From a virus: a stretch of 22,640 nt of DNA. Shown piece by piece: positions 7,226 through 21,753 of this stretch (within the stretch, counting starts at the first letter, position 1; every line of letters starts with the position of its first letter). The notes beneath the pieces are model-generated. The model was given only the letters and a program-made list of their open reading frames with translations, was not told the origin of the DNA and did no database searches. The position numbers and the translations under genes are program-made. Location of the stretch: positions 1 through 22,640 of the IMG/VR virus record IMGVR_UViG_3300034374_006773; one strand, 5' to 3'.

Positions 7226-8118
7226 AGTTGAGTTTTAATCCAATCGAGAATATTTACTTTGGGTTTCCAAGTCAGTTCAGACTTTGCCTTTCTAATATCA
7301 GCAAGGGTTTCTCTCATCTCACCAGGTCTGCCAGACAAGAACAGTTGATTATCATCAATTGCATCTGCGATCTGTTTGATACTCCAGTTTTCACCGTATC
7401 CAATATTATAGACCTCACCCCAAGTATCAAGTTCAGTAAAACTAATCAAACAATTAGCTGCAACAACATCAGATACGTGAATAAAATCACGACGTTGATG
7501 ACCATCACCGTAGATAGTGAGTGGTTGACCATCTTTTTTCATCTTCAAAAACTTACTGACGGCAGGAGCATATGTTCCTACGTGTCTTGCTCTTTCACCA
7601 TATACATTGGTGTATCTGAATGCAACAGTCTTCATACCATAGAGACCATAGTATGACTTGACTAACTGTTCTCCAGATAGTTTTCCAATAGCATATGCAT
7701 TGAGAGGGTCTTCTCTCATGATCTCATTATTGGGAAGAGGATTGTTATTACCGTATGCAGCAGAAGTGGAAGAATAGATAAACCTTTCTACGCCATGTTT
7801 ACGTGCAGCCTCAAGACAGTTAATAGTTCCCATTACCTGAGTCTCAATAGTAGGAATAGGATTATCTACAGATGCTTGGACACTTGCCTTTGCGGCCAAG
7901 TGGTAAACGTAATCTACATTCTCAAAGACTTTTTCAATCTCACTGTATCTTCTTATATCGAGATGATAATTTCTAGTCCTTGAATTCCAATAATATTTGT
8001 CATGACCATCGGACGATTCATTGTCGATCACAATAACTTGATGACCCAACTTAAGTAGACCGTCAACTAGATGACTACCAATAAATCCAGCTCCACCAGT
8101 AACAAGTGATGTTTTCAT
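7222..8118 (-). CDS. UDP-glucose 4-epimerase-like SDR (298 aa)
   Basis: This is an extended SDR of the GalE/WbpP type that would interconvert UDP-sugars at C4, for example UDP-Glc/UDP-Gal or the uronic or N-acetyl forms. The NAD motif is TGGAGFIGSH (residues 7-16), followed by HLAAKASV (73-80), the Ser/Thr site YSSTSAAYG (115-123) and Tyr142-x3-Lys146 (YAIGK). The substrate-side motifs RYTNVYG and YGDGHQRRDFIHV are also typical. It is somewhat shorter than classical GalE (about 340 aa). It shares four-base overlaps with both neighbours, so it is translationally coupled. Exact substrate is not determined. Confidence 0.9.
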   Translation of the reverse strand: MKTSLVTGGAGFIGSHLVDGLLKLGHQVIVIDNESSDGHDKYYWNSRTRNYHLDIRRYSEIEKVFENVDYVYHLAAKASVQASVDNPIPTIETQVMGTINCLEAARKHGVERFIYSSTSAAYGNNNPLPNNEIMREDPLNAYAIGKLSGEQLVKSYYGLYGMKTVAFRYTNVYGERARHVGTYAPAVSKFLKMKKDGQPLTIYGDGHQRRDFIHVSDVVAANCLISFTELDTWGEVYNIGYGENWSIKQIADAIDDNQLFLSGRPGEMRETLADIRKAKSELTWKPKVNILDWIKTQL

Positions 8119-8894
8119 AACTTTTCAAAAATTCTATTCTTAAAAGACTCTTCCACGTTTGGAGGTTCTGGAATAATGATCCTAGGTTTACAATCACCCA
8201 ACCACCATGCCACCTCAGCGAATGTTGAGGCATACGTACCTACAATTGTACCACACCGTGACAATAACATCAAGTCAATCATTGCATCTACATTTGCTTG
8301 TAAGGAGTTATTATGTCCAGACTCTGCTTGATGTGGATGATTGAACTTATCTTGAGTATGAGTGATAATACGATCACCAAACTCATCCTCAATTTGTTTC
8401 AATACATCTTTATTATCACCACACAAGAAGATCTTTTGACTCTCGTCCAGTCTATCAATCGCATCAATGAATAATTGATTGTCATGCCAACGATGTCTAT
8501 CACAATACCATGATCTAATGTGGAGTCCTATGGTATCTCCCCAATCTTTGGTGAAGTCATCAACATAATCAACGATGTCTTGATTTATCTTCAGGTAAGA
8601 AAAAGCCTTTTTATATTTGTCAATGAAATACTGTGGAGTCTTTTCATAAAGTAAGTCAATATATTTGTACTCCTCACAGTGAGTCCTTTCATAATTTTGA
8701 ATATCAAATCTCCAGTGATCATATCCAGGATATGTTCTCACCTGTTCCTCAGTTGCTAAATCAATACTATCGAAGATATAAGTATCTGCTTCCTTGACAG
8801 TCAAAGCTTGTTTATATGTGGTCAAAATAGACACATAAGTTTTAATTCTATTTGCAAGACCAGGTGAACCTACATTTACAGCAACTTCAATCAT
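8115..8894 (-). CDS. Fucosyltransferase-superfamily enzyme (259 aa)
   Basis: This is a GT-B type glycosyltransferase related to the alpha-1,6/O-fucosyltransferase group rather than to GT11. The donor-binding motif is GLHIRSW (residues 123-129), with His and Arg spaced as in HxR. The C-terminal DLMLLSRCGTIVGTYASTFAEVAWW (207-231) matches the SxF(S/A)ExAW pattern of these enzymes. The N-terminus VNVGSPGLANRIKTYVS resembles the GxxNR donor-region start of the superfamily. It overlaps neighbours by four bases on each side. A GDP-sugar donor is likely from family knowledge; acceptor unknown. Confidence 0.78.
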   Translation of the reverse strand: MIEVAVNVGSPGLANRIKTYVSILTTYKQALTVKEADTYIFDSIDLATEEQVRTYPGYDHWRFDIQNYERTHCEEYKYIDLLYEKTPQYFIDKYKKAFSYLKINQDIVDYVDDFTKDWGDTIGLHIRSWYCDRHRWHDNQLFIDAIDRLDESQKIFLCGDNKDVLKQIEDEFGDRIITHTQDKFNHPHQAESGHNNSLQANVDAMIDLMLLSRCGTIVGTYASTFAEVAWWLGDCKPRIIIPEPPNVEESFKNRIFEKL

Positions 8895-9697
8895 GCTTCA
8901 ATGACCTCCCAAGACTCAGGATACAAACCATCCGTACTGATATGTTGAAGTCCAGGACCATACCAAGGAGTAGGAGCAATAACTCTCTTTACAGGGTTCT
9001 GTGAAAGATATGCACCCCACCATGAGAAGGTGGAGTTGGAGACAATAAAATCAGCACAACTAGAGATAAGACACAAATCAAAATGAGACTTCTCTACACG
9101 AGTAGAGATGTCATTGAAATGGAAGTTTTTACCTTTAAAGATCTTTTGTTTCTTACATAATTCAATATTATTTGAACAGATGATGTACTGACGATGTTCA
9201 CCCATCATCTCAATTGCCTTCTCAAAATAATTCCATGGAAGATTTCGATGATTATTGTGACTTCCAGGATAGTCAAAGTGATCATTAAACTCTCTAACTA
9301 CGATAGAGACAGGCATCTGATCTAGGAGACTTCCATAAATCTGATTTACCTCAGAGACAATTTCATCCTTGAACTTAAAGTCCCACTTCAATGCTCTCCA
9401 AGCATGTTTGAAGTATTTGTCATTTTGAAAGTAACCATTTAGATGGATGTGATTTGGACATTCATCAAATAATTCCTGACAGAACTCATGAGAGTCATGA
9501 AGTTCTACTTCATCACCTTGAATGGTTCCGTATCTACCACCACAGTGAAGCATCTTAAAACACTTACTGAGTTCTTGATTCTCGGGGATTACAAAATCAT
9601 ATCCCTTATTCTTTGCAATACCTACAAGTGCTGCATACTGAAAGAGTTGGTTACCAATTCTACCATTTCTTCCAAGGTTGTTCATTCCAATAGTCAT
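8891..9697 (-). CDS. GT11-like protein with altered donor motif (268 aa)
   Basis: This is a paralogue of the GT11 gene at 4791-5585. The N-terminus (GRIGNQLFQYAAL, residues 12-24), the mid-region NGYFQNDKYFKH and the C-terminal ADFIVSNSTFSWWGAYL (215-231) are all conserved. The expected HxRRxD motif, however, reads VSIVVREFNDHF (130-141): the His is replaced by Val, the second Arg by Glu and the Asp is shifted. In characterised GT11 enzymes this motif is important for GDP-fucose use, so the protein may be inactive, may use a different donor, or may be an accessory subunit. The reading frame is intact and overlaps both neighbours by four bases, which argues against simple decay. Confidence 0.85.
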   Translation of the reverse strand: MTIGMNNLGRNGRIGNQLFQYAALVGIAKNKGYDFVIPENQELSKCFKMLHCGGRYGTIQGDEVELHDSHEFCQELFDECPNHIHLNGYFQNDKYFKHAWRALKWDFKFKDEIVSEVNQIYGSLLDQMPVSIVVREFNDHFDYPGSHNNHRNLPWNYFEKAIEMMGEHRQYIICSNNIELCKKQKIFKGKNFHFNDISTRVEKSHFDLCLISSCADFIVSNSTFSWWGAYLSQNPVKRVIAPTPWYGPGLQHISTDGLYPESWEVIEA

Positions 9698-10521
9698 AAT
9701 TCAATCTCCTTGTTTTGTTCAGCCAGTACAGTGTCAGTGATATCTCCTACGTCAAGAGAATAGTAAGTATGCCAACCTCTTGCATTTGCTGCGTACCAGT
9801 TATTTAACGCACCTCGTGTCATCTTGACTTTCTCCCAGAACTCACGAGATTGGATCTGATAATGGTTGTTTAGAATCTCGGGGTCATCTGGTCTACCTAC
9901 AAATGAAAGGTTGATTGTAGGTCCACCTGTGGGGATCTTGTGAATGTTGAAAGACTGAACACCAAACTTGGTATTAGCAATCTGTTTAGGAGCCCAAAGG
10001 TTAAACCACTCTGGTTCTTCCTGACCACTGGTTGCACTCTTGGATCTATGAGTCATCCAGACCCTATCCCCGAATTCTGCACGAGATGTAAAATTCTTAA
10101 CCAAACCACCGTAAGGGTGATAAAGATGATCATTGCTATTAAACCATACCCAGTTGGTTTCGACGGCTCCATAATTCTCATACTTACGAAGAATTTCCTT
10201 AAGATCTATACACTTAGGACTGTAGAGAAATTCATCGAGATCAACTTGAGCAATCCATTGTGTCTCACTACAGATTGGTAAGAAGAATCGATTATTCACA
10301 TCAGTCTGTCTACCAGTATACCTCTCAGTGATATTATTTTGGAAGAGTGTAACGAAACCTTCATTAATAAAAGGTTCAAGGATTGGAAGATACTCATCAT
10401 CACTAAAGTCATTGACCAAATAGATATGGTCAACACCATGATGTTTGTAATGAAGAACCCATTCCTTTAGATTCCAACTCTCATTTTTAAATACCGATGC
10501 AACTGATAGGTAGTGTTTCAT
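9694..10521 (-). CDS. GT92/DUF23-type glycosyltransferase (275 aa)
   Basis: This is a GT-A fold transferase of the GT92-like group. The signature blocks are visible in order: SVFKNESWNLKEWVLHYKHHGVD in pieces (FKNE at 11-14, EWVLHY at 20-25, GVDHIYLVND at 29-38), the metal site QVDLDEFL (92-99), and the C-terminal NHYQIQSREFWEKVKMTRG pattern. GT92 enzymes of eukaryotes add beta-1,4-galactose to fucose, which is suggestive beside the fucosyltransferase-like genes here, but the family is broad and the match is by motif only. It overlaps both neighbours by four bases. Confidence 0.85.
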   Translation of the reverse strand: MKHYLSVASVFKNESWNLKEWVLHYKHHGVDHIYLVNDFSDDEYLPILEPFINEGFVTLFQNNITERYTGRQTDVNNRFFLPICSETQWIAQVDLDEFLYSPKCIDLKEILRKYENYGAVETNWVWFNSNDHLYHPYGGLVKNFTSRAEFGDRVWMTHRSKSATSGQEEPEWFNLWAPKQIANTKFGVQSFNIHKIPTGGPTINLSFVGRPDDPEILNNHYQIQSREFWEKVKMTRGALNNWYAANARGWHTYYSLDVGDITDTVLAEQNKEIEL

Positions 10522-11231
10522 AATGTAATACCGTGTTTCTTCCTACAATACTCAAACTCTTTCTGTACGTCTTCATCACTGATTGTCGATGATAATGCAT
10601 CTTTGTTTACTCTTTGCGTAATCAAACACTCATTAAGATATACACAGTCACCATACTTTGATCTCAAGGAATAGTAGAAATCAACATCCAATAGCATGAT
10701 GGTATTTGAGTCCCACCTGACATCCATGTTTTTGTTTTTATAAGAGATAACAGATACACCACTCATAGTGTTGTTACCTCTTGACCTCAACATATTATCA
10801 TTCCAACGAGGCATCAGATAGGTATCAAATGTTTTACCATTATCTCTAGTGTGATTAGTTCCACAAACCAACCACATCTTATCAGAGTCCATCAATGCAT
10901 TATAAGTTTTCTCTAATGCATCTTTGGTAAAGAAGTAGTCATCCATATACATCATCTTGACAACCTGACCCTTGGCGAGATTCATTCCAAGATTTTTATT
11001 GGATGCTACATCACCTCTCTTATCAGCGTTTCTATAGTAAACAATATTAAGATCAAAGATATTGTCATGACAGAAATCCATAATCTCTGTATCAACACTG
11101 TGATCAGTAACTATTACTTCTACTTCTTTCAGTGTTTGTTGTGAAATGGTACGGAACATATCAGAAAGATATCTGACACCCTTACCACCATACTCATAAC
11201 AAGGGATGACTACAGATACCTTTACTTCCAT
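10518..11231 (-). CDS. GT2-family glycosyltransferase (237 aa)
   Basis: This is an inverting GT-A glycosyltransferase. It begins VKVSVVIPCYEYGGKGVRYL, the canonical GT2 start with the nucleotide-binding first strand. It continues with VIVTDHSVD (39-47), NLGMNLAKGQVVKMMYMDDY (metal-binding Met-Asp-Asp at 96-98) and a C-terminal LDVDFYYSLR segment where the catalytic base usually lies. At 237 aa it is a single compact domain with no membrane anchor. The donor sugar cannot be read. It overlaps the methyltransferase upstream by 10 nt and GT92 downstream by 4. Confidence 0.9.
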   Translation of the reverse strand: MEVKVSVVIPCYEYGGKGVRYLSDMFRTISQQTLKEVEVIVTDHSVDTEIMDFCHDNIFDLNIVYYRNADKRGDVASNKNLGMNLAKGQVVKMMYMDDYFFTKDALEKTYNALMDSDKMWLVCGTNHTRDNGKTFDTYLMPRWNDNMLRSRGNNTMSGVSVISYKNKNMDVRWDSNTIMLLDVDFYYSLRSKYGDCVYLNECLITQRVNKDALSSTISDEDVQKEFEYCRKKHGITL

Positions 11232-11905
11232 ACCTTGACACCAGCACTGATACCATCTTCAAAAATTTCAAACTTGTATCCGTGTTTAGTCAACCATTCT
11301 CGGAACGCCTTTCTTTCATGGTGATCGTAATCGGGTTCATGTCCATGCCAGTCATCAAATCGGAAGTAGAGTTCATCCCACTCACACTTATCAATGAATT
11401 TGAATGCTGATACCGTGGGTTCATAGATGTCCAGGTCAATGTGAACTGCACCAATCTTACCGATACCAAAATCAGATGGTTCTTTCTCTACCATCTCATG
11501 GACATCTTCAACAAAGATCTTGATATTGGGAGATGCCGCACACTTTCTCTTTACATCTTCTACGGTTTTAGGAATCCAAACATACTGGGGATCGCCAATA
11601 CGAAATGCACCTTCAGCCCAACCAGCATAAGCAGGAGTGGGTTGTTGTGTAACTTCTAAACCTTTAAAGTGATCGAAACCAAAAACTTTACGTGATGGAT
11701 TTTTCTGTCCGATGGGTAGGATTGTACCACCACTACACACACCGAATTCTAGAATATCTCCTTCTCCACCCATCTCTTCAATACGTTCTGCAAAGGTAAC
11801 GTGATTGAGGGTGTATGATGCTGTGTTATTGTCAGTTCTTTTTGGACCTTCAGGAAACACATTATCGACCTCCACAAAGGAAGGTGCATTATAAACAAAT
11901 GACAT
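11222..11905 (-). CDS. TylF/macrocin-type SAM methyltransferase (227 aa)
   Basis: This is a class I methyltransferase, probably an O-methyltransferase acting on a sugar hydroxyl. Motif I is DILEFGVCSGGTI (residues 50-62), followed by VFGFDHFKGL (74-83). The metal-binding TylF-like elements are VHIDLDIYEPT (154-164) and RFDDWHGHE near 191. Sugar O-methylation is common in cyanobacterial and phage glycans. Its start ATG has no ribosome site but lies 20 nt after a late-promoter octamer (11925-11932), so part of the cluster may be boosted late. It is separated from the upstream gene by 22 nt, the largest gap inside the cluster after the promoter at 17583. Confidence 0.85.
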   Translation of the reverse strand: MSFVYNAPSFVEVDNVFPEGPKRTDNNTASYTLNHVTFAERIEEMGGEGDILEFGVCSGGTILPIGQKNPSRKVFGFDHFKGLEVTQQPTPAYAGWAEGAFRIGDPQYVWIPKTVEDVKRKCAASPNIKIFVEDVHEMVEKEPSDFGIGKIGAVHIDLDIYEPTVSAFKFIDKCEWDELYFRFDDWHGHEPDYDHHERKAFREWLTKHGYKFEIFEDGISAGVKVWK

Positions 11906-11924
11906 AGTAATAATGAATCTGGAA

Positions 11925-11932
11925 TATTTATC
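11925..11932 (-). promoter_or_regulatory. Late promoter candidate inside the glycan cluster (GATAAATA)
   Basis: The octamer GATAAATA differs from the T4 late consensus only at the first base. It overlaps the stop codon of the DUF5672 gene and sits 20 nt before the methyltransferase ATG at 11905, the spacing seen at the other late promoters here. It would allow separate late transcription of the last eleven glycan genes. Confidence 0.45.
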
Positions 11933-12650
11933 TGGGGTTGTAACCCTCTACCTCCACACCTGGTGGGAGATTATTGTGGAACCCGAAAGGAATTATACCA
12001 CGATTCTCAGGAACTGGGGACTCATATGAGAAGAACTTTGCAACTTCAACACCAGCAATTTTACACCCAGCTGCTTCATATAGGTGTTTGTTATGTACAG
12101 TGATGTTACCGTCTTCATTTGTATTGTTTCCTCCAAACATCTTGTAGAAGTCAGGTGCAACTTCTGCAACCCTAAAAGGAATCCAAGTGTGTTTAGGAAC
12201 CTCTAACAGTTTCTTTGACCTAAATGAAAATCCACCATTACCTACTCTTTGATGTTCTCCAAAAGGGGTAATGTATGCTCTTTCTCGAATGGGCCAAGGG
12301 GCACCAATATAATCATAGTCATAAAAGTTATCCATCCAAGCATCTGGATTTATAATAAAAGCATGATCTTGGATGAGAAGAACATAATCAGTATCGATAT
12401 GTTTGTGAAGATGGTACAAAATATAATAATTGTACTCATCAATATTGGTCAATGGTCTGACTTGTTCTTCTACTAAAATACCATCAGAGGACAGTTCGTC
12501 CTTGTATTTGGTAACATACTGAGGGGTGGTAACTAACTTGACCTCCCCAAAGTTTGCAACACTCTTACAAGTATGAAGTGCCTTGATGGTCTCTTCTATT
12601 CTATTTGTATTATCAATCGCAAAGCATGTTACTCTGGAAAGATCAAGCAT
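11928..12650 (-). CDS. DUF5672-family protein, probable glycosyltransferase (240 aa)
   Basis: The protein matches the DUF5672 pattern, found next to glycosyltransferases and thought to have a GT-A-like fold. It begins with a strand and DNTNRIEETIKAL. It shows YVLLIQDHAFI (residues 89-99) where a DxD-type motif is expected, then YIGAPWP (114-120), RVGNGGFSFRSK (135-146), an NEDGNI acidic site and PFGFHNN near the end. The order is diagnostic of the family. The acidic pair is replaced by Gln-Asp-His at 94-96, so metal use may differ. It overlaps the dehydratase upstream by eight bases. The sugar donor is unknown. Confidence 0.82.
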   Translation of the reverse strand: MLDLSRVTCFAIDNTNRIEETIKALHTCKSVANFGEVKLVTTPQYVTKYKDELSSDGILVEEQVRPLTNIDEYNYYILYHLHKHIDTDYVLLIQDHAFIINPDAWMDNFYDYDYIGAPWPIRERAYITPFGEHQRVGNGGFSFRSKKLLEVPKHTWIPFRVAEVAPDFYKMFGGNNTNEDGNITVHNKHLYEAAGCKIAGVEVAKFFSYESPVPENRGIIPFGFHNNLPPGVEVEGYNPR

Positions 12651-13938
12651 TTTTGAATTCCTCTACCACCTTTTCAATGTAGTCAATCATATCACCATTG
12701 ATTGTAGGAGAACAACCAAGGAAGAATACTTTGTTAAGAACCTGATTGGCTTCGGGATATTTAGAGGCGTCATCCAAGTGTGAGTAACCAGGATGTAGAA
12801 GAATATTACCAGCGAAATAATTACGAGTTTGAACCTTACTAGCTTCTAGGTGAGCGACCAGACTATGCTTTAGTTGTGGGGTATCACAAACAATAGGAAC
12901 ACCAAACCAACTGGTCTCACTGTCTTGTCTTTCACGAACAACTCGACAACCAGGAATAGTCTCAATGATATTCTGAATTCTTTCCTTATTACTTCTACGC
13001 ATTTGGTGAATCTCCTCAAACTTAAGAAGTTGAACAGAACCAACTGCACCTTGCATATCCAGGGGTTTCAGATTGTAACCCATCTGTGAGAACACATACT
13101 TGTGATCAACAACATCATCATAATTATCTAACCAAGTATCAAATCTCTTACCACAAACACCATTTGGAAGAAGGTTTTGTTGTCCAACACAGTAACAACC
13201 ACGACCCCACCAAGCATAACTACGAGCCAGGTCTACAATACCTTTGATATTGGAAGAGACCATACCACCTTCGATAGTACACAGGTGGTGTGCAGGGTAG
13301 AAAGAACAAGATGCAGCAACTGCATGTTTGGTCAGATAATCACCTTTGTACTTACTACCAAGACTGTCACAATTATCGGAGATCAGTTTGATATCTTTCT
13401 TCTCACAGAGATCAAGAATACGATCGATATCATATGCATTACCAAGTACAGGTGAAGAGAACACTGCAACAGTTCTATCCGTAACTTTCTCCTCAACCTG
13501 ATCCATGTTCCAGTTGAGATCATCCCATGTAATATCAACAAAGACTGGTTTCAGACCATTCTGAACAATAGGTGCAATGGTGGTTGCAAACCCACATGAA
13601 CAAACAATGATCTCATCTCCATCTTTCCATCCGAAGTATTTCTTAAGTGCAGCAACCATCACAAGGTTTGCGGATGAACCAGAGTTCACCATCACAGAAT
13701 GACCAAACCCAAACTTGTTAGAGAACTCTTTCTCAAACTTGTTCACCTTCTCACCAGAGGATAACCACTTACCCTTCATCACTGCATAGATGAGTTCCTG
13801 TGCCTCCATATCATTCCAGTATGGACCAGAATAGTAAACAGGGTTACCAGGTTTCCAATCTTTATTAGCAATAAAGGGGAAGATATTATCGTCAATCTCT
13901 TTCGCAGACTGAATAAAATTTTCAATCAGTTGATACAT
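12643..13938 (-). CDS. RfbH-like PLP-dependent sugar 3-dehydratase (431 aa)
   Basis: This DegT/DnrJ/EryC1-fold enzyme most resembles RfbH (CDP-6-deoxy-4-keto-glucose 3-dehydrase, E1), which removes the C3 hydroxyl on the way to 3,6-dideoxyhexoses. Supporting marks are SGPYWNDMEAQ (37-47), SGSSANLVM (86-94), the Asp of ISDNCDSLGS, and SFYPAHHLCTIEGG (212-225). In that last block His217-His218 replace the Lys that would make it an aminotransferase, which is the hallmark of the dehydratases. A CxC...CGKRF stretch (Cys248, Cys250, Cys262) corresponds to the [2Fe-2S] region of RfbH, but one of the four expected cysteines is absent. ColD (GDP-4-keto-6-deoxymannose 3-dehydratase) is the alternative. 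The start lies 9 nt after the upstream stop, without a clear ribosome site. Confidence 0.88.
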   Translation of the reverse strand: MYQLIENFIQSAKEIDDNIFPFIANKDWKPGNPVYYSGPYWNDMEAQELIYAVMKGKWLSSGEKVNKFEKEFSNKFGFGHSVMVNSGSSANLVMVAALKKYFGWKDGDEIIVCSCGFATTIAPIVQNGLKPVFVDITWDDLNWNMDQVEEKVTDRTVAVFSSPVLGNAYDIDRILDLCEKKDIKLISDNCDSLGSKYKGDYLTKHAVAASCSFYPAHHLCTIEGGMVSSNIKGIVDLARSYAWWGRGCYCVGQQNLLPNGVCGKRFDTWLDNYDDVVDHKYVFSQMGYNLKPLDMQGAVGSVQLLKFEEIHQMRRSNKERIQNIIETIPGCRVVRERQDSETSWFGVPIVCDTPQLKHSLVAHLEASKVQTRNYFAGNILLHPGYSHLDDASKYPEANQVLNKVFFLGCSPTINGDMIDYIEKVVEEFKNA

Positions 13939-13947
13939 GGGGATCTA

Positions 13948-14913
13948 TTATCTAATGGTATTATAGTAGGGTCTGGACCCTTTGTAAAGGTCATATTCAG
14001 TTTGACACTCAGAGCCAGTATTCAGAACACCCTGAGTATCAAGGTATTTCCATTCAGGAACAATCATATCGTCACCTCTCCACCATCCGTCAGAGGTCTT
14101 ATAATCAAACCAATACTTTGGTGCAATTACATTCTCTACAACTTTACTTGTCCATACAGGCCAGAAAGAGAAAGTAGATGCCGACATGATTACGTGTCTA
14201 GCATTATGTAGGATAGACCAATCCACCCCAATATTACCACCTTTGTACTTAAAGAATCCTGTTCCTTGTTCAATATCTTCTTGTTCTTCTAGTGTTGTTG
14301 CACCTACGACCTTTGCCCATGGAATGAATTTGTTTGCATTCTCAGGATCGTCGGTCACAACAACAAAGTTCATGTTGGGATTTATTTCCAACATCTTGTC
14401 ACGTGCATTCTCATAGAACTCAGGAGGACACCATGATGCAGTAATTAGATACTCACCACCACGGAAGTGAATCACACAAGTATCTTCATCAGAATAGGTT
14501 TGAACATCTACATTGTGAGACAACCATTTACGAATGTCATCTTTGTATTCATTAATGTATGTCAGACACTGAAATAGACCATCCAGTTTTGAATTGTCTG
14601 GAAGATTGTTCCAAAGATTATCGTCAAAAAAGATACCACTATGTCCACACTGGGGAAGTGGATCATTCCTTTCTCGTATATAATTTGTAATACCAACTGG
14701 AAGAGAGGCAGGAGGTTGACCTTCTCTTGGTGTATTGCCACCAATTACTTCTTCACCAAAGTAGAAGTTTGGCATGAAGTTCTTGGCTTTAAAAGGTGTG
14801 GACTTCTTAACACCCCACTTATATCCATGTCTTTGTGCAAGGATTCGTGATACGACAAGGTTCCAGATCTGGTTTCCCAACCCAGAACCCCGATAAATTT
14901 CAGTTACAATCAT
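13948..14913 (-). CDS. Divergent GT11-like fucosyltransferase (321 aa)
   Basis: The N-terminus EIYRGSGLGNQIWNLVVSRI (residues 5-24) is the GxLGNQxxN start of GT11 enzymes. The donor motif is CVIHFRGGEY (146-155), with His149 and Arg151 kept and Gly-Gly-Glu in place of Arg-Gly-Asp. The C-terminal block HVIMSASTFSFWPVW corresponds to the STFSWWGAW element. It is longer than the other two GT11-like proteins, with an insertion after residue 60. It shares four bases with GT17 upstream (ATGA). A GDP-linked L-sugar donor is the likely substrate by family; acceptor unknown. Confidence 0.82.
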   Translation of the reverse strand: MIVTEIYRGSGLGNQIWNLVVSRILAQRHGYKWGVKKSTPFKAKNFMPNFYFGEEVIGGNTPREGQPPASLPVGITNYIRERNDPLPQCGHSGIFFDDNLWNNLPDNSKLDGLFQCLTYINEYKDDIRKWLSHNVDVQTYSDEDTCVIHFRGGEYLITASWCPPEFYENARDKMLEINPNMNFVVVTDDPENANKFIPWAKVVGATTLEEQEDIEQGTGFFKYKGGNIGVDWSILHNARHVIMSASTFSFWPVWTSKVVENVIAPKYWFDYKTSDGWWRGDDMIVPEWKYLDTQGVLNTGSECQTEYDLYKGSRPYYNTIR

Positions 14914-15794
14914 TTGATCAGATAAGAATATTTTTCTTGATTCTTCAGTAGATACTCAGGGAATCTATCCTCATCAAAATGTACAACACAGTATGAGGCA
15001 TTGTCTTGTCCCAAAGGAGAACGACCATCCTTCAACCGTTCTTCCAGTTCACCAATAAGTCTCTCATTATTGAGTTCAGTATGTGCAGAGGACTTGATCT
15101 TTTTTAGAACTCTATCATACATCGTACCCTTTTCATTACTTCCAACAGTGCTCCAGTGCCAACCACCAGGGTAAATACGAAGATTATTTTCTTTAGGAAG
15201 TTCACGACGAATGTCAGTCAAGGTGTACTTCTTGAGTGTTGCAAAGTCACACATCTTAGTACCAATCCAACGTGGACCTTCATCCTCATAAGAAAAGTCT
15301 TTAGTTTGAGATGTAATGGTAGAAGAAGTTTCGAACCAGTTCAATGCTGCCTGATAATTATCTTGTGCAAAATTATAGACAGTTCCAGGTTGATAGAAGT
15401 CACTGATATTCTCAATCACTTCAGGATTTGGAACTTCATCCAAATCACTCCAGATGATAACATCCTCATCAGAACAATGTTCATTGAGAACATTCATGAT
15501 ACTGTCTTTATAGAAAGTATCTCTCATGAAGGATTCTCTTTTTACATTATATCTAATACCTTGAGATTGAAGTTGTTCCGAAGTTGGCTCCTCAATCTGT
15601 GTATAGATGATTTTACTTCTAAATTTCTCAAACCTTTCATCTTCAATGTCAAAGATAAAACCTTTATCTTCTCCCGAAAAGGTTTTTCTTCCTTCACTAA
15701 AAACAAAATAATCAACGAATGGATCTAAGAGATTCATACGAATCTCCAAAAGATCTAATTCATAACCAAACAGAAAAACATCAAATACTTTCAT
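14910..15794 (-). CDS. GT17-family glycosyltransferase (294 aa)
   Basis: This resembles beta-1,4-N-acetylglucosaminyltransferase III-type (GT17) enzymes. The N-terminus VFDVFLFGYELDLLEIRMN (residues 3-21), the VDYFVFSEGRKTFSG block (27-41), the metal site VIIWSDLDEVPNP (112-124) and the GGWHWSTVG segment occur in family order. Length matches bacterial and phage members. The start is preceded by GAGG at suitable spacing and lies one base after the stop of the FkbM gene. It would transfer a hexose or HexNAc onto the growing glycan. The linkage is inferred from the family only. Confidence 0.9.
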   Translation of the reverse strand: MKVFDVFLFGYELDLLEIRMNLLDPFVDYFVFSEGRKTFSGEDKGFIFDIEDERFEKFRSKIIYTQIEEPTSEQLQSQGIRYNVKRESFMRDTFYKDSIMNVLNEHCSDEDVIIWSDLDEVPNPEVIENISDFYQPGTVYNFAQDNYQAALNWFETSSTITSQTKDFSYEDEGPRWIGTKMCDFATLKKYTLTDIRRELPKENNLRIYPGGWHWSTVGSNEKGTMYDRVLKKIKSSAHTELNNERLIGELEERLKDGRSPLGQDNASYCVVHFDEDRFPEYLLKNQEKYSYLIK

Positions 15795-15795
15795 A

Positions 15796-16509
15796 TCATC
15801 CTCTCAATTTAAACAGTACATCTCCACCTTCGACATCATTGTATGTCCAGTTCTGTTCCAGATCATAACCTGTCAGAAGATCTTTGATTGTCTGAAGATT
15901 AGTTGCACCCTCATACATTTCTTCTTCATGATATTCGGTATAGATGTAATCAATCTTTCCTAACATGTTCTTTGCACCAAGGAAGACTTCCTTTTCTGCA
16001 CCCTGAACATCCATCCACAAAAAGTCAATGTGGTCAATAGAATTCTCTTCACAGAATGAGTCAAGACTACGTGTCTCAACTTCAATCTTTTCATCATACT
16101 TAATCATTGGCCAACGATTACCGTACTTAGGACTGTTTACGATAGTCTTAGGTTCGTAAATTGATCCCGAGTATCGTCCCCAATCAACTCCACCACCTGG
16201 TCCATTGACGTTTCTAGAACGAGTAAATACGGTTCGTCCATCTTGAGCTGCAATTGCAACAGGAGTGAAAGTATGACGAGCATCGGTTCTAAGTTTGTGA
16301 TTAGGATTTCCTTTTACATCAACACCATCTTGACTTGACATTGCTTTAATGTTAGTCGGATCTGGATCAAAGGTATAGATCTTAAGATTAGATCCAAACT
16401 TACTCAAGAATTGACGAGTATCAGTACCATCAGCACTACCTACTTCAAAGATAACAACTTGTTCTCTATTACCAACCAATTCATGAATCTTATCAATCGA
16501 GATTCCCAT
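15796..16509 (-). CDS. FkbM-family SAM methyltransferase (237 aa)
   Basis: This is a class I methyltransferase of the FkbM type, usually a sugar or polyketide O-methyltransferase. Motif I is VVIFEVGSADGTDTRQFL (residues 18-35), YTFDPDP follows as the acidic motif II region, and the family marker HIDFLWMDVQGAEKEVF sits in the C-terminal third. I chose ATG at 16509: AAGGAG lies seven bases upstream, and the 77 extra in-frame residues further upstream come from reading the epimerase gene out of frame. It overlaps the epimerase end by 17 nt. Together with the TylF-like enzyme it gives the cluster two methyltransferases of different families. Confidence 0.92.
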   Translation of the reverse strand: MGISIDKIHELVGNREQVVIFEVGSADGTDTRQFLSKFGSNLKIYTFDPDPTNIKAMSSQDGVDVKGNPNHKLRTDARHTFTPVAIAAQDGRTVFTRSRNVNGPGGGVDWGRYSGSIYEPKTIVNSPKYGNRWPMIKYDEKIEVETRSLDSFCEENSIDHIDFLWMDVQGAEKEVFLGAKNMLGKIDYIYTEYHEEEMYEGATNLQTIKDLLTGYDLEQNWTYNDVEGGDVLFKLRG

Positions 16510-17560
16510 CTTTTTGCTCCTTAATTTGTGTTTGAATCCATTCGTATGTCTTACGGATACCCTCTTCAAGACTCTGAGAGTAATCCCAATCCAGTTTTTC
16601 ACGGATAAGATCGTTGTTCGAGTTACGACCACGAACTCCAGTAGGTGCGTCCAGTTTATAGATCTTCTGAACAACCTTACCAGAAACTTTTGCTGCAGTA
16701 TCAACCAATTGATTGATGGTAACCATCTCTTCCGAACCAATGTTTACAGGACCCATGAAGTCACTGTCCATCAGACGACGTGTAGCCTCAATACATTCAT
16801 CAATGAAGAGGAATGAACGAGTCTGTAGACCATCACCCCAGACTTCGATTGCACCACCAGTGTCAGGAAGATATGCTACCTTACGACTGATTGCTGCTGG
16901 AGCCTTTTCACGTCCGCCATCCCAGGTTCCCTCAGGACCAAAGATGTTGTGATACCGAGCAACACGAACAGGAATCCCGTGATTCCGATTATAAGCAAAA
17001 TACAATCTTTCTGAGAAAAGTTTTTCCCATCCATATTCGCTATCTGGATTAGCGGGGTATGCAGATTCTTCACGACAGTCAGGATTATCGGGGTCAAGTT
17101 GATTGTGTTCTGGATACATACAGGCTGATCCAGAATAGAAGATCTTAGTCTGATTCAGATCATGATACTTATTAAGTTTTCTTTGTTCATCAAGAACATT
17201 CAAGTTAATAGTAACTGAATTATGCATGATGTCTGCATCGTTCTCTCCAGTGAAAACGAAACCTGCACCACCCATGTCAGCAGCAAACTGATAGATCTCG
17301 TCAAAAGGTTTAAGAAACTGTTCCGAAATTTGTGCATAGAAACTAGCACTATAACCACCGAATCGAATTGCTCGACGAACGATGTTTACATCACGGAGAT
17401 CACCAATGATAAACTCATTCGCTTCGGTTTGAGTATACTCGGGTCGTTTTAAATCAACACCACGAACCCAGTATCCCTCAGATCTCAGTCTTTTCACCAT
17501 GTGAGAACCAATGAATCCACCTGCACCCAATACCAGTGCAGTTTTCTTATAATCAGACAT
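16493..17560 (-). CDS. GDP-mannose 3,5-epimerase-like SDR (355 aa)
   Basis: This is very close in motif order to plant GDP-D-mannose 3',5'-epimerase, which makes GDP-L-galactose (and GDP-L-gulose). It has the NAD motif LGAGGFIGSH (residues 11-20), FAADMGGAGFVF (92-103), the active-site YSGSACMYPEHNQL (142-155), Tyr176-x3-Lys180 (YGWEK), RYHNIFGPEGTWDGGREKAP (202-221), WGDGLQTRSFLFIDE and GVRGRNSNNDLI. Cys147 and Lys219 fit the two acid/base residues of the plant enzyme. It begins a transcription unit: a consensus promoter and late octamer lie just upstream, with AGGA ten bases before the ATG. It may feed the four fucosyltransferase-like enzymes downstream, since GDP-L-galactose is the 6-hydroxy analogue of GDP-L-fucose. 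Confidence 0.92.
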   Translation of the reverse strand: MSDYKKTALVLGAGGFIGSHMVKRLRSEGYWVRGVDLKRPEYTQTEANEFIIGDLRDVNIVRRAIRFGGYSASFYAQISEQFLKPFDEIYQFAADMGGAGFVFTGENDADIMHNSVTINLNVLDEQRKLNKYHDLNQTKIFYSGSACMYPEHNQLDPDNPDCREESAYPANPDSEYGWEKLFSERLYFAYNRNHGIPVRVARYHNIFGPEGTWDGGREKAPAAISRKVAYLPDTGGAIEVWGDGLQTRSFLFIDECIEATRRLMDSDFMGPVNIGSEEMVTINQLVDTAAKVSGKVVQKIYKLDAPTGVRGRNSNNDLIREKLDWDYSQSLEEGIRKTYEWIQTQIKEQKDGNLD

Positions 17561-17582
17561 TAAAAATTCATCCTGTTACTAA

Positions 17583-17615
17583 TATTTATTATAGGGTACC
17601 AAGGGTATATGTCAA
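17583..17615 (-). promoter_or_regulatory. Consensus sigma70-type promoter fused to a late octamer
   Basis: On the minus strand TTGACA (17615-17610), a 16-nt spacer and TATAAT (17593-17588) form a promoter with both boxes perfect. The late-type octamer AATAAATA (17590-17583) overlaps the end of the -10 box. The -35 box contains the TGA stop (17614-17612) of the preceding gene. It drives the GDP-mannose epimerase and the sixteen-gene run that follows. Confidence 0.88.
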
Positions 17616-18433
17616 TAGATATCACACATAATATCTAGACCCTGGTCAAGTAACATCCTAGGAACAAAACCATAAGACTCAAGTCTATCAACATTCACTG
17701 TCATATTCTTTATTTGTAAGAATTCTTGATCTTTGGGGAAAGGAACATCTATGATGTCACTTTTACTTCCCACCAGCTCCTTACAGTATTCAATAATTTC
17801 CTTGAATGATTGAGAAACACCAGAACCAATGTTATAAATTTTATTAGTTTCTCCAAAGACCATTAATGTATCTAATGCCCTACAAACGTCCTCAACATGC
17901 ATGTAGTCCTTAAGATAGTAACCACCATCATAAAGATTAATGGGTTCATTGTTCCTCAAACGACGAATCAAATAACCTAAGACGTTCTTTCCCTTGGAAA
18001 CTGTAGGATCGATACCGAATACATTAGCAATTCTAAAGATACGATATTCAATACCAAAAGTTTTACAGTAAGAGATTACCAAAGACTCGGCACATCTTTT
18101 TGTGATTGAGTAGAAACCTGTGGGATTACAGGGATCACCCTCTTGAGCATCAATCACATTGTTACCATAAACAAAACTAGAACTAACAAAATTAAATACG
18201 GTATCTGTTCTCTTACAATGTGAGAGGACTTCTGTAAGAATCTTTAGGTTAACGTCAATATCAATCTGAAGATCATTAAAAACATTTTGATTGGTAGTGG
18301 TACTAATAAGATATAAAATATTTCTTGAATCGGGATGTCTTTGACCACGAGGAATAATAAAATTATTTGGATACAATCTCATGTAATTACTACCGATGTA
18401 TCCTGTACCACCAAAGATAGAAAGATTAATCAT
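17612..18433 (-). CDS. dTDP-sugar SDR: probable 4-ketoreductase or epimerase (273 aa)
   Basis: This is an extended SDR with NAD(P) motif IFGGTGYIGSNYM (residues 6-18), active-site VSSSFVYG (83-90) and Tyr108-x3-Lys112 (YSITK). It follows rmlB and rmlC, so it probably reduces or epimerises the 4-keto sugar made by them. It is not RmlD-like in its motifs, so the product need not be dTDP-L-rhamnose; 6-deoxy-talose, fucose or similar is possible. I chose ATG at 18433, which overlaps the rmlC stop by eight bases. The 25 upstream in-frame codons are the rmlC gene read out of frame. Its stop lies in the -35 box of the next promoter. Confidence 0.82.
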   Translation of the reverse strand: MINLSIFGGTGYIGSNYMRLYPNNFIIPRGQRHPDSRNILYLISTTTNQNVFNDLQIDIDVNLKILTEVLSHCKRTDTVFNFVSSSFVYGNNVIDAQEGDPCNPTGFYSITKRCAESLVISYCKTFGIEYRIFRIANVFGIDPTVSKGKNVLGYLIRRLRNNEPINLYDGGYYLKDYMHVEDVCRALDTLMVFGETNKIYNIGSGVSQSFKEIIEYCKELVGSKSDIIDVPFPKDQEFLQIKNMTVNVDRLESYGFVPRMLLDQGLDIMCDIY

Positions 18434-18959
18434 ACTTGTCACACTCGTGTAAGGGTTTACCTTTCTGATCTTTTTCGGAAAGGATGGGACTAAAAGATTC
18501 CCATTCAATATTTAAGTCTGGATCATTCCACAAAAGAGTACGATCGTATTCTTTGTAATAATAATCAGTGGTTTTGTATGATACATGAGCATTACCAGTC
18601 TTAGTGTAAAACCCATGAGCAAAACCAGGAGGTACCCATAACATAACTTCTGGACTGTTAAGTTGAACTACAACGTGTTCACCGAAGTTGGGTGATGATT
18701 GTCTCAAATCAACAACCACGTCAGTTATCCAACCATCCATACACCTCACCAGTTTACCTTGAGGTTTCACTACTTGATAGTGTAGACCACGAAGAACATT
18801 GATTGTAGAACAAGAATGATTATCTTGAACGAACTCTACATCCAGTACTGACTCAAGATCTCTCTTATTATAAGACTCAATAAAGAATCCACGATCATCC
18901 AAAAACTTTGTCTGTTCAATAATGATAACTCCTTCTAGAGTTGTCTCAGTGATTTTCAT
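18426..18959 (-). CDS. rmlC: dTDP-4-dehydrorhamnose 3,5-epimerase (177 aa)
   Basis: This is a cupin-fold epimerase converting dTDP-4-keto-6-deoxy-D-glucose to the L-lyxo sugar in L-rhamnose-type pathways. The family motifs are complete: FLDDRGFFIE (19-28), QDNHSCSTINVLRGLHYQ with catalytic His60, PQGKLVRC (66-73), DVVVDLRQSSPNFG (80-93), WVPPGFAHGF (108-117) and YKTTDYYY (128-135). Length is normal (about 180 aa). It overlaps rmlB upstream by 14 nt and the SDR gene downstream by eight. No rmlA or clear rmlD is in the window, so the precursor must come from the host or from phage genes outside it. Confidence 0.95.
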   Translation of the reverse strand: MKITETTLEGVIIIEQTKFLDDRGFFIESYNKRDLESVLDVEFVQDNHSCSTINVLRGLHYQVVKPQGKLVRCMDGWITDVVVDLRQSSPNFGEHVVVQLNSPEVMLWVPPGFAHGFYTKTGNAHVSYKTTDYYYKEYDRTLLWNDPDLNIEWESFSPILSEKDQKGKPLHECDKYD

Positions 18960-19860
18960 AATACTCTATAGTTTTTCTAAGTCCTTCCGTAATGTCTGTG
19001 GTTGGTTTCCAATCTGTCTCTGAACAGATCTTATCATTTGACGTTGAGTATCTTCGATCGTGTCCCAGTCGATCAGTAATGAAATTGATTGGATGTTCTG
19101 GCTTACCCATCAAATTGGTAATCTTTTGGATAAGTTCGAGGTTTGTAAGTTCACACTCACCACCAATGTTGTACCTCTCTCCAAGTTTACCATTCTTGTG
19201 GAGATTAATCAAGGCATCACAATGATCCTCAACATAAATCCAATCCCTCACATTTTGACCGTCTCCGTAAACTGGGATAGGAGAATCATTCTTTATGTTG
19301 TTAATGATTGTTGGAATCAACTTCTCACCAAACTGTCTAGGTCCATAATTATTTGAACAGTTAGTGATGATTGTTGGAAGACCATATGTTTTATTATAAG
19401 CATAGACAAAATGATCACTAGATGCCTTTGATGCTGAATAAGGATTTCTTGGAATATACCTTGAACCTTCAAAAAATGATCCTTCTTCGATAGAACCAAA
19501 TACCTCATCAGTAGAGATATGCATAAACTTTTCTACTTCATTCTCTAATGCACATTGAAGAAGATTTACTGTTCCAATAATATTAGACTCAATAAATGGT
19601 TTACAATTTTTAATTGAGTTGTCTACATGAGTTTCAGCAGCAAGGTGAAAGATTGAAGTAATCTTTTCCTTTTCGAAGACATGTCTTACCGAATCTTCAT
19701 GCCAAAGGTCTACCTCATATAATTTAACGTAGAGTGGAACATTACTTTTATTTCCTGCATAGGTAATTTTGTCGATACAAATAATTTCTTCGTCAACTTT
19801 TAACTGTCTAAGAAGACTACTTCCGATAAAACCTGCACCACCAGTTACTAGAATACTCAT
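18946..19860 (-). CDS. rmlB: dTDP-glucose 4,6-dehydratase (304 aa)
   Basis: This is an extended SDR that oxidises C4, removes water across C5-C6 and gives dTDP-4-keto-6-deoxyglucose. It has the NAD motif VTGGAGFIGSS (residues 5-15) and HLAAETHVDNSI (72-83). The dehydratase triad is HISTDEVFG (114-122, Thr117-Asp118-Glu119), with Tyr141-x3-Lys145 (YSASK), CSNNYGPRQF and DRLGHDRRY near the C-terminus. The last motif is specific for dTDP-glucose dehydratases. It is about 40 residues shorter than many RmlB proteins but keeps all motifs. AGGAAAA precedes the ATG. It overlaps the cytidylyltransferase gene by four bases (ATGA). Confidence 0.93.
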   Translation of the reverse strand: MSILVTGGAGFIGSSLLRQLKVDEEIICIDKITYAGNKSNVPLYVKLYEVDLWHEDSVRHVFEKEKITSIFHLAAETHVDNSIKNCKPFIESNIIGTVNLLQCALENEVEKFMHISTDEVFGSIEEGSFFEGSRYIPRNPYSASKASSDHFVYAYNKTYGLPTIITNCSNNYGPRQFGEKLIPTIINNIKNDSPIPVYGDGQNVRDWIYVEDHCDALINLHKNGKLGERYNIGGECELTNLELIQKITNLMGKPEHPINFITDRLGHDRRYSTSNDKICSETDWKPTTDITEGLRKTIEYYENH

Positions 19861-20351
19861 TTTTCCTCGTACTTTTCCAGAATTATTGGAGAATATTGTT
19901 CAGGAATATCACCCTGAATTTTTTCATTTCTTTTTTTCTCTTCTAACATATGAACTCTATTCCTAAGTTCCGTAGAAGAATACTTATGTTGTCTTTTGTG
20001 ATAATGAATTTCTATTCCATTATCAATACAATATTGTTTACCTGTGAAATTTCTATCCTTATACTCCTCACTCAGAAATCTAATATCAATTCTCTGTGTC
20101 TTAATCATATTCAACAGATCTTCCTCTGTCTCATATACAAGAATTTCATCAACGTACTTACAACCTTGTATTTGAACATATCTCTCATACACACTCTGTG
20201 TGGGTTTGTTCTTAATACCAGGTCTGTCGATGGTTGGATCAACCTGAAGTGCAACGATTAACCAATCACACAAATCTTTTTCCATCTTCAACATTGTCAC
20301 ATGTCCTGCATGAAACAAGTCAAAGGAACTACAATTAAAACCGATCTTCAT
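19857..20351 (-). CDS. Cytidylyltransferase-like nucleotidyltransferase (164 aa)
   Basis: This is a nucleotidyltransferase of the glycerol-3-phosphate cytidylyltransferase/HldE C-domain type. The N-terminus IGFNCSSFDLFHAGHVTML (residues 3-21) holds the nucleotide-binding HxGH motif (14-17). The C-terminal KYSSTELRNRV corresponds to the RxSST motif. A variable tail of about 30 residues follows that motif. It would activate a small phosphorylated sugar or polyol with CTP (or ATP); the exact substrate cannot be read. It is the first gene of the glycan block, about 22 nt after the predicted start of the promoter at 20380-20408, and it has no clear ribosome site. Confidence 0.87.
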   Translation of the reverse strand: MKIGFNCSSFDLFHAGHVTMLKMEKDLCDWLIVALQVDPTIDRPGIKNKPTQSVYERYVQIQGCKYVDEILVYETEEDLLNMIKTQRIDIRFLSEEYKDRNFTGKQYCIDNGIEIHYHKRQHKYSSTELRNRVHMLEEKKRNEKIQGDIPEQYSPIILEKYEEK

Positions 20352-20379: not shown

Positions 20380-20408
20380 ATTGTATAAAAAAAGGAGGTC
20401 TATGTCAA
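20380..20408 (-). promoter_or_regulatory. Promoter with its -35 box inside a terminator loop
   Basis: On the minus strand TTGACA (20408-20403), a 17-nt spacer and TACAAT (20385-20380) make a near-consensus sigma70-type promoter. The -35 box occupies the loop and the first base of the downstream arm of the terminator at 20393-20416, and the spacer contains the arm and the T tract. It would start transcription of the glycan block near 20373, immediately past the termination site. Confidence 0.78.
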
Positions 20409-20416
20409 GACCTCCT
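20387..20416 (-). terminator. Strong intrinsic terminator overlapping a promoter
   Basis: AGGAGGTCT (20416-20408) pairs perfectly with AGACCTCCT (20401-20393) over nine bases with a six-base loop. Seven T residues follow (20393-20387, the first shared with the stem). It ends transcripts coming from the coiled-coil gene and the candidate RNA before the glycan block. Confidence 0.93.
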
Positions 20417-20630
20417 GGGATTCCATGCACGCCAAGTTATTTTTTTCACTGAGTAATAACTAAATCTCAGGCGGGAGATTATCCCATCCGCACCATCTAA
20501 TCTTTGGAGAATTAGAAAACTCAGTTGGGTCCATTGACTCCACCACTTAGTTTTACGAACCAAGAAACGCGGGAAGAAGGGGACCTTCTAATACCGACCA
20601 GGGCAAGTTTTGAGTCGTTCCGTGACTTAA
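20417..20630 (-). ncRNA. Possible structured RNA, or remnant of a frameshifted gene
   Basis: This is a 214-nt stretch without a normal gene. The minus strand shows successive inverted repeats: AGAAGG/CCTTCT (20575-20580, 20584-20589), TCTAAT/ATTAGA (20496-20501, 20511-20516), GGGA/TCCC (20473-20476, 20482-20485) and AGTTATT/AATAACT (20435-20441, 20455-20461). The loop of the last repeat (ACTGAGT on the plus strand, 20448-20454) is the exact complement of 20519-20525, which allows a 7-bp pseudoknot. A strong terminator follows directly, as expected at the end of a small RNA. Alternatively, three short frames joined by two one-base shifts read like one Trp-rich protein. Neither view is proven; short repeats arise by chance. 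Confidence 0.3.
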
Positions 20631-20873
20631 TTAAAGTTGACCTTTAGAAAGCTTATCTATATTAAGAGGAGCATGTCTTTTAAGGATAGAGATAAGGAGA
20701 TCAAGTTTTCCCGAATCAGATGATTGAGCAGCTGGTGCGGGAGCCTTTTTCAGATCTTCAAGTTCTTTTTTAAGATCGGAGATCTGTGACTTGAGTGCTT
20801 TGATTTCCTTTTCTACTTCCAAATCATACTGAGACATAAATGCCCCCGACTCAGATGTTCTTCTCGATGCCAT
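20631..20873 (-). CDS. Coiled-coil phage protein (80 aa)
   Basis: From ATG at 20873 (MASRRTSESG) the protein has a long heptad region at about residues 18-45 (VEKEIKALKSQISDLKKELED), an Ala/Pro linker (KAPAPAAQSS) and a short C-terminal helix. I preferred this ATG to the TTG three codons upstream. A coiled coil plus flexible linker suggests an oligomerising structural or assembly protein, but no family is recognised. A late-type octamer (20898-20905) lies about 25 nt before the ATG, so late expression is likely. There is no clear Shine-Dalgarno sequence. Confidence 0.8.
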   Translation of the reverse strand: MASRRTSESGAFMSQYDLEVEKEIKALKSQISDLKKELEDLKKAPAPAAQSSDSGKLDLLISILKRHAPLNIDKLSKGQL

Positions 20874-20897
20874 GTCTGTCAAATAAAATCTCTGTGT

Positions 20898-20908: not shown

Positions 20909-21133
20909 TTAGTCATCTTTGATGTAACAAGGTACACGATCTGGATCTAACCATTTCGTATATTCGAAATCATCAATAGCGGTAAGAAGTTGCATCTGAT
21001 TGTCAAGCAGATACATGTCTCGGTAACGTTTGGTGTAACTATCAGCCTTCTGAATACGGTAATCTGGTTTACCATTCTCAAGGGTTCCCGTCTCAACATA
21101 TCGATAGGGGAACCGTTCAAGAATAATCTTCAT
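20909..21133 (-). CDS. Small phage protein of unknown function (74 aa)
   Basis: This soluble protein is rich in Tyr, Asp and Arg, starts MKIILERFPYRYVETG and ends DPDRVPCYIKDD. There is no membrane segment, signal or known motif. Its ATG overlaps the stop of the upstream 71-aa gene by one base (TAATG), so the two are translationally coupled and read from the promoter at 21371-21399. Early expression with host-takeover-type small proteins is a reasonable guess. The function is not known. Confidence 0.8.
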   Translation of the reverse strand: MKIILERFPYRYVETGTLENGKPDYRIQKADSYTKRYRDMYLLDNQMQLLTAIDDFEYTKWLDPDRVPCYIKDD

Positions 21134-21348
21134 TAGGCAACCTCAACTTGTTCAAGATCCTCTGCAAGACAGTCAATCAAGATATCATAATCATCGAGGG
21201 GATCTCCAGAAAAAGTAACTCCACCATTTTCATAAAACTTACGAACCTTTTTGAAAAGTTTCGGATTCTTAACGTCAAGGAAGAAGTCTCCGTTAACTGC
21301 GGAACGAAGAGTGGTGATGTCTTTTTTGAACTTAGAAGTGATTGTCAT
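21133..21348 (-). CDS. Small phage protein of unknown function (71 aa)
   Basis: From ATG at 21348 the protein reads MTITSKFKKDITTLRSAVNG and ends in an acidic helix LIDCLAEDLEQVEVA. I rejected the longer reading from TTG at 21399 because that TTG is the first part of the -35 box of a good promoter and the transcript would begin downstream of it. It contains the pattern FFLDVKNPKLFKKVRKFYEN and GDPLDDYDILID, with no known motif. It is coupled to the 74-aa gene by a one-base overlap. It is probably an early gene of unknown role. Confidence 0.8.
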   Translation of the reverse strand: MTITSKFKKDITTLRSAVNGDFFLDVKNPKLFKKVRKFYENGGVTFSGDPLDDYDILIDCLAEDLEQVEVA

Positions 21349-21579: not shown

Positions 21580-21753
21580 TTATTGAGCTTCGTTGTTGTT
21601 CTCAGTGTATATCTTATACAATGGATCGTTCACTGACATTATGACACTGGACTTTCCATCTTCATTTACTATCCCAAACGTTTCTCCTTCTTCCACACGT
21701 GTTATCAACTCGTCCCATCTTTCTTGAAATTCTTGCACCGTGAAGATTTCCAT
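21580..21753 (-). CDS. Phd/YefM-like antitoxin, no toxin partner visible (57 aa)
   Basis: From ATG at 21753 the protein begins MEIFTVQEFQERWDELITRV, continues with EEGETFGIVNEDGKSSVIMS and ends in a polar tail. This follows the Phd/YefM (prevent-host-death) layout: a short strand, a helix starting T-x-x-E-F, a helix ending in V-E-x-G-E, then a beta hairpin x-I-x-N-x-x-G-K. These N-terminal folds bind DNA and, through the C-terminus, the toxin. The C-terminal toxin-binding part is very short here. No toxin-like gene is next to it: it sits between tRNA-Pro and tRNA-Ile. A CTAAATA sequence (21763-21769) lies about ten bases before the ATG, but there is no ribosome site. Confidence 0.65.
   Translation of the reverse strand: MEIFTVQEFQERWDELITRVEEGETFGIVNEDGKSSVIMSVNDPLYKIYTENNNEAQ

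Follow-up and report, generated by a model that had tools for sequence, protein, structure and literature searches.

What fills the gap between a stop codon and an intrinsic terminator on the minus strand of a 22,640-nt viral sequence (IMG/VR record IMGVR_UViG_3300034374_006773, hereafter the window)? On its upstream side the gap is bounded by a coiled-coil gene (20631–20882, with its TAA at 20633–20631), and on its downstream side by a predicted intrinsic terminator with a 9-bp stem (20393–20416), whose loop contains the TTGACA of an overlapping predicted sigma-70-type promoter (20380–20408; TTGACA at 20408–20403 and TACAAT at 20385–20380, 17 nt apart). An earlier reading of the letters, called here the sequence-only reading, had noted inverted repeats on this strand with a strong terminator next to them and no intact gene, and all of this holds: four stem-loops lie between the stop codon and the terminator at 20416–20393. 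An open reading frame can be dismissed as the cause of the repeats, as the only frames of at least 40 aa listed inside the stretch are one of 52 aa with a TTG start (20405–20563, minus strand) and one of 40 aa on the opposite strand. Judged from its sequence and those of its relatives, the stretch consists of four small RNA pseudoknots in a chain, the last two of which make up the wcaG RNA. Our leading interpretation, to which we assign a probability a little below one half, is that this chain serves as a 3′-UTR structural element that caps or insulates the upstream transcript.

The core of the stretch is already known, because positions 20421–20524 (minus strand) are a full-length member of the Rfam family RF01761, wcaG RNA (cmscan, 72.3 bits against a cut-off of 42, model positions 1–98 of 98). 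A second, sub-threshold wcaG-like match covers 20531–20630 (23.9 bits, E 0.038), and the 5′ half at first resembled a diverged second wcaG copy. Model R1 gave no match to these upstream units of the window, and the 5′ half was resolved as two more pseudoknot units of the chain. The sequence-only reading had included neither the identity of the 3′ half with a known Rfam family nor the continuation of the same modular chain through the 5′ half.

To compare this locus with its relatives, we scanned IMG/VR with a wcaG core pattern and obtained at least 120 stretches (L003–L122), all with a match to R1; collapsing near-identical copies of the pattern-selected matches listed gave 111 distinct loci including the window, and a simple script assigned their ORFs longest first. 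With the window as query, BLAST against named phages returned 31 records, and a metagenomic wcaG query at a looser limit returned 101, all of them cyanophages. The pattern scan of genome contigs yielded at least 119 loci, and among the matches listed only one was strong (L170:6273-6400, from a Rhodobacteraceae MAG contig, at 74.8 bits; the rest scored at most 25.7). We therefore set aside a role in bacteria, the more so as this contig is probably phage sequence in a bacterial bin because its score equals that of the phage contig L098 (74.8 bits). Weak R1 matches at ~57 kb in phages S-SM1 and S-SSM5 resemble coding sequence by eye.

The window's chain opens, 4 nt past the stop codon, with pseudoknot a (20601–20627), an A-type unit whose first stem (S1) pairs AGTC (20627–20624) with GACT (20616–20613) and which probably has a short second stem, GG/CC; model R2 matches 20594–20627 at 46.8 bits, the window sequence being part of the R2 training set. 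The K linker TGGTCGG...CCCGC (20569–20600) follows, with a hairpin GAAGG/CCTTC (20588–20584 with 20580–20576), and leads to pseudoknot b (20546–20569), a U-type unit in which the second stem (S2) pairs CTTGGTT (20564–20558) with AACTAAG (20552–20546) and S1 is weak, at 2 bp only. The next linker, G (TGGTGGAGTCAATGGACCC, 20527–20545), can form a hairpin GTC/GAC with GG/CC on its flanks, and shows little covariation because it is mostly invariant among relatives. The wcaG RNA then begins with pseudoknot c, its P1 (20496–20522), in which S1 pairs GAG (20522–20520) with CTC (20509–20507) and S2 pairs 20516–20510 with 20502–20496. The core TGGTGCGGA with the P2 hairpin TGGGA/TCCCG (20472–20495) separates it from pseudoknot d, the wcaG P3 (20435–20470), where S1 pairs CTGAG (20470–20466) with CTCAG (20453–20449) and S2 pairs AGTTATT (20461–20455) with AATAACT (20441–20435). 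All of these features lie on the minus strand, as does the end linker TGGCG (20430–20434), which is followed by the terminator stem 13 nt further on.

The sequence-only reading had proposed a structured RNA with a possible pseudoknot, to be checked by compensatory changes in homologues, and such changes are present both in the wcaG helices and in S1 of the A-type units, in addition to the Rfam match. All three consensus helices of wcaG are conserved with covariation. Across 70 aligned relatives, the three hairpins and the pseudoknot helix (23 pairs) are paired in 97.4% of cells, with a covariation score of 0.564; shuffles score 0.234, none of the 500 being as high as the alignment, and slid controls 0.119 or less. 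Both outer wcaG hairpins are H-type pseudoknots, each with the two helices of that type. S1 of pseudoknot d is 97.1% paired, with three of four pairs changed on both sides, and it covaries within the window's own subtype (CTGAG/CTCAG, CTGGG/CCCAG in L053 and CTAGG/CCTAG in L072), while the closing pair of pseudoknot c is T-A in the window and A-T in phage S-H68. For the U-type, we collected 193 units by stem 2 and TTT alone, leaving S1 unused in the search; S1 of at least 3 bp occurs in 144 of the 193, a few of which are spurious, whereas 500 swaps average 63.7 and never exceed 81. There are 117 distinct A-type units upstream of wcaG, and in 32 aligned ones S1 and one further pair covary (score 0.557 versus 0.163), that one pair being the support for the A-type second stem. 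The K linkers have inverted repeats of at least 4 in 41 of 70 cases versus 15.9 in shuffles. Plain folding, also suggested as a check, revealed no unusual stability (261 nt, z = -1.25, with 24 of 200 shuffles as stable or more).

The particular pseudoknot proposed from the letters was a long-range one of 7 bp, between ACTCAGT (20454–20448) and ACTGAGT (20525–20519). The complementarity is exact as claimed, but it is not conserved across loci, being common only to the window and its close relatives S-H68 and S-B05, and it uses the 5′ arm of stem 1 of pseudoknot c. Among the 78 loci that could be compared, kept from up to 125 candidates, 19 have a long-range pairing of at least 5 bp versus 21.3 expected from swaps, which is no excess. 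A local partner of at least 4 bp upstream of the same stem (20470–20466 in the window) is found in 73 of the 78 versus 28.0 in swaps (maximum 37). The long-range pseudoknot is thus rejected as a conserved element, and the local 5-bp partner is what is conserved.

Across the relatives, wcaG is the 3′ portion of a modular chain in which "UGG" hairpin linkers connect the H-type pseudoknots. In the 94 of 111 loci that our chain parser could read (17 stayed unparsed), the chain has 2–5 units: two in 29 loci, three in 26, four in 35 and five in 4. Upstream units are of A-type or U-type, and after each comes UGG with a short hairpin linker; the code of the window, A-K-U-G-U-C-U-E, is shared by eight other loci.

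Of the 79 loci with a same-strand upstream ORF, 65 have the chain start at or inside the upstream stop (-27 to +13 nt), compared with 11.8% for random positions; the stop falls inside the first knot in 36 of the 65 and within -3 to +13 nt in 29, and in the other 14 of 79 the chain does not start near a called stop. A terminator comes within 160 nt after the RNA in 82 of 111 loci, its stem 12–25 nt past TGGCG in 73 loci. Of 78 strict wcaG terminators, 52 have an exact TATAAT no more than 24 nt past the stem, versus 6 of 45 others on the same contigs (2.2% of random 24-mers), and loops with TTGCAT, TTGACA or TTTACA occur in 58 of 78 versus 10 of 45. Because TTGCAT matches a -35 element poorly, the -10 element is the stronger promoter signal, and a TTGACA/TATAAT scan at 10 or more of 12 positions picks out only 26 of 111 loci. 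Exact TATAAT occurs within 140 nt upstream of the chain in 3 of 85 loci, rarer than the 12.5% expected at random, versus 46 of 85 downstream of it. Given these downstream signals and the start of chains at upstream stops, the second of two options offered in the sequence-only reading, a long 3′ regulatory region belonging to the coiled-coil gene, is the better fit, ahead of a discrete small RNA. The literature searched yielded no published transcript starts for such phages.

Not every locus follows this arrangement. In at least 11 (L017, L032, L034, L054, L065, L066, L069, L098, L117, L118 and L121), inspection by eye shows no terminator and a start codon a short way past the RNA, so that the RNA there must be a 5′ leader or intercistronic.

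The genes on the two sides of the chain differ in constancy. The first conserved gene upstream of the RNA in the window is a GC250-like small core gene (20909–21133, phrog_481), preceded by a GC249-like one (21133–21348, phrog_552), both on the minus strand and of unassigned function, with labels taken from phage records. Among the 99 loci with at least 700 nt upstream, a GC250-like gene lies upstream on the same strand in 78, a GC249-like gene in 76 and one or the other in 88; neither lies downstream in any. A first downstream gene was identified in 93 of 111 loci, and these genes match 35 Pfam families, led by sugar-nucleotide dehydratases/epimerases (GDP_Man_Dehyd/Epimerase, 31), cytidylyltransferases (12) and 2OG oxygenases (9). 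In the window the first cargo gene is cytidylyltransferase-like (19857–20351, minus strand, PF01467) and opens a sugar-nucleotide and LPS-type cluster, the long run of sugar-nucleotide and glycosyltransferase-like genes behind the promoter extending over 3991–20351 (minus strand). On the other side, a Phd-like antitoxin gene (21580–21753, phrog_375) sits amid six tRNA genes.

The RNA is present exactly once per record, as an R1 match, in 14 of 14 phage records selected for having wcaG. GC250 itself is present in 461 phage records, and of nine phages chosen by GC250 alone, three have an R1 match at the island (S-PM2, S-RIM2, and ACG-2014a at 27 bits). A variant knot, R3, occurs once per genome in six of the nine, on which its model was trained, and two of these also have R1; seven of nine thus have R1 or R3. 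Inspection by eye reveals an A-type-like knot in ACG-2014f and no such RNA at the site in P-HM2, which has GC250. The R3 knot starts at the stop codon and reads AGTC TTTGCCAAT AGACT ... TGG. This knot, AGTC-TTTGCCAAT-AGACT...GATGG, was observed at that island in 9 of 23 phage records, with a single copy in each genome (loci L261–L266, L131, L132, L135, L040:850-889 and L112:6094-6133), and it is absent from the Rfam matches there. In S-PM2 the array follows a halogenase gene, ~1.8 kb past GC250. Where records were found without the search pattern (S-CAM1, Syn1, Bellamy and S-H68), the wcaG core varies.

Comparison of the loci thus shows a fold, a modular chain, a position at the stop codon, terminator and promoter signals, and fixed upstream but variable downstream genes, from which we infer that the RNA is transcribed within the upstream mRNA. 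The stretch would then be the 3′-terminal untranslated domain of a GC249–GC250–coiled-coil transcript, with four H-type pseudoknots and UGG-hairpin linkers filling the gap from stop codon to intrinsic terminator, and the promoter on the terminator would give rise to a separate LPS-cargo transcript that leaves the RNA out. A role in cis is suggested by the fixed upstream gene, the stop position, the terminator with a promoter behind it and the exchangeable modules. This role is most likely structural, which fits better than a ligand-specific one because the modules are interchangeable: the compact chain may stabilise the upstream mRNA by blocking its 3′-to-5′ decay, or insulate it by separating it from the interchangeable cargo behind. 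The highly conserved wcaG core counts against this explanation in that it suggests a specific partner, although its conservation is partly built into the search pattern. So do the loci with an early start codon and no terminator, the arrays that adjoin tRNA genes, the 14 of 79 chains that start away from a called stop, and P-HM2, in which GC250 is present and no such RNA was seen.

One alternative, the catalogued one, is that of a metabolite-sensing riboswitch candidate, a cis-regulatory 5′-UTR that controls terminator read-through into LPS, hli and other cargo. Rfam types the family as Cis-reg, Weinberg 2010 (PMC2864571), in the part available to us, presents it as a candidate linked to exopolysaccharide and high-light genes, and the conserved core, the frequency of sugar-nucleotide enzymes downstream (31/93 GDP_Man_Dehyd/Epimerase) and the 11 or more loci that by eye have an early start codon and no terminator would all suit it. 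Yet the upstream gene is the fixed one and the downstream genes vary, the RNA is single copy per genome (14/14 records), related phages lack the core and have other modules, and most loci have a promoter behind the terminator; in the window both separate the RNA from the cargo gene. Complementarity between the RNA and the terminator arm is also not conserved: the longest complement is 4.63 versus 4.65 when swapped (n = 78), with no conserved antiterminator. Antitermination by such pairing was rejected for lack of excess complementarity, and the conserved alternative pairing with the terminator expected of a riboswitch expression platform was not found in these 78 loci. We consider the riboswitch unlikely on balance. 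It is doubtful, too, that the 3′-UTR is processed to a stable trans-acting RNA of ~200 nt that ends at the terminator and has a host or phage target. This would match the small RNA option of the sequence-only reading and agrees with the conserved core, the RNA's own terminator at its end and its fixed single copy in each of the 14 genome records, all selected as wcaG carriers, but the upstream promoter signal was not found (TATAAT in 3/85), chain length and composition differ widely, and several relatives lack the core.

The RNAs put and EAR are processive antitermination RNAs, and an RNA of this class, modifying RNA polymerase so that upstream transcription passes the terminator into the cargo, would explain a place directly before the terminator at the head of long sugar-gene clusters. 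However, most loci show a separate promoter signal for the cargo, the RNA is present also where tRNAs or a single short cargo follow, and nothing ties it to RNA polymerase, making this very unlikely. Finally, fixed upstream and variable downstream genes are what one would expect of a DNA-level docking site at the left edge of a hypervariable island, used in recombination between phages for cargo exchange. We regard that as highly improbable, since compensatory changes imply selection on pairing rather than letters, and the placement after stop codons is strand-specific.

If the reading as a structural 3′-UTR element is extended beyond the window, it is possible, and we propose it only tentatively, that T4-like cyanophages keep at one fixed locus a modular 3′-UTR string of interchangeable pseudoknot cartridges in which shape rather than ligand matters, wcaG being one common set. 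The cartridges would be the U-type, the A-type and a TTTGCCA variant, with or without the wcaG core, in a string running from the stop codon (often inside the first knot) to the terminator, with the cargo promoter on or behind the latter. The wcaG RNA is an orphan whose name and supposed role derive from downstream genes; if its fixed partner is the upstream transcript, with variable cargo as the genes downstream, then efforts to find a sugar or light ligand have looked on the wrong side. A modular pseudoknot-chain 3′-UTR would then be a feature of phages that infect abundant marine cyanobacteria, and the array would mark the site where they swap metabolic cargo.

The locus resembles wcaG as catalogued (RF01761) in that the whole 98-position model is matched, the context is cyanophage and sugar-gene cargo lies downstream. 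It differs in that wcaG makes up no more than the 3′ half of the four-pseudoknot chain, which stands after a stop codon and before a terminator-promoter and has the upstream gene as its fixed partner; comparison of many marine cyanophage sequences suggests a place for the array at the end of a transcript, not at the start of the next gene as catalogued. The assignment to the family rests on sequence and fold and is unaffected by that placement. An exopolysaccharide role is given or repeated in the available parts of PMC2864571, PMC9602691, PMC9964418, PMC10665884 and PMC12197685, and the accessible part of PMC10976474 holds no ncRNA information. In the open-licence literature, as far as its text was available, we found no description of the chain, its stop-codon position or its terminator-promoter; other journals may have one. 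Among other structured RNAs, the pseudoknot domain of tobamoviruses adjoins a tRNA-like end. This upstream pseudoknot domain (PMC4683447) is similar in having consecutive pseudoknots in a viral 3′-UTR, but it belongs to a plant RNA virus, whereas the window is from a DNA phage with an intrinsic terminator, and no homology is implied. The STAXI motif (PMC2864571) also repeats a pseudoknot two or three times, but has other associated genes and was proposed as possibly a single-stranded DNA structure; the Rfam scan, which may hold no STAXI model, gave no STAXI match in the window. Like wcaG, manA RNA (RF01745) is an orphan structured RNA of cyanophages, but its model and length are different and the window has no match to it in the Rfam scan. 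In S-CREM1 (L127:2968-3182), manA RNA occupies the interval that separates a tRNA-Leu from a tRNA-Asn gene, near wcaG.

Several minor features were seen in individual genomes. The deposited 'hypothetical protein' genes SSM2_190 and SRSM4_042 overlap the RNA (L125:2449-2643 and L129:2490-2603) and may be spurious. Several arrays adjoin tRNA genes, and two loci (L040:850-1193 and L112:5808-6133) have a tandem pair of arrays, the second of which runs directly into a tRNA-Leu gene. In S-RIM8, S-IOM18, S-RIM50 and S-RIM2 (L256:1946, L257:1954, L258:1491 and L271:379), single A-type units also follow tRNA-Leu by a few nt within a tRNA cluster that is distant from the wcaG locus.
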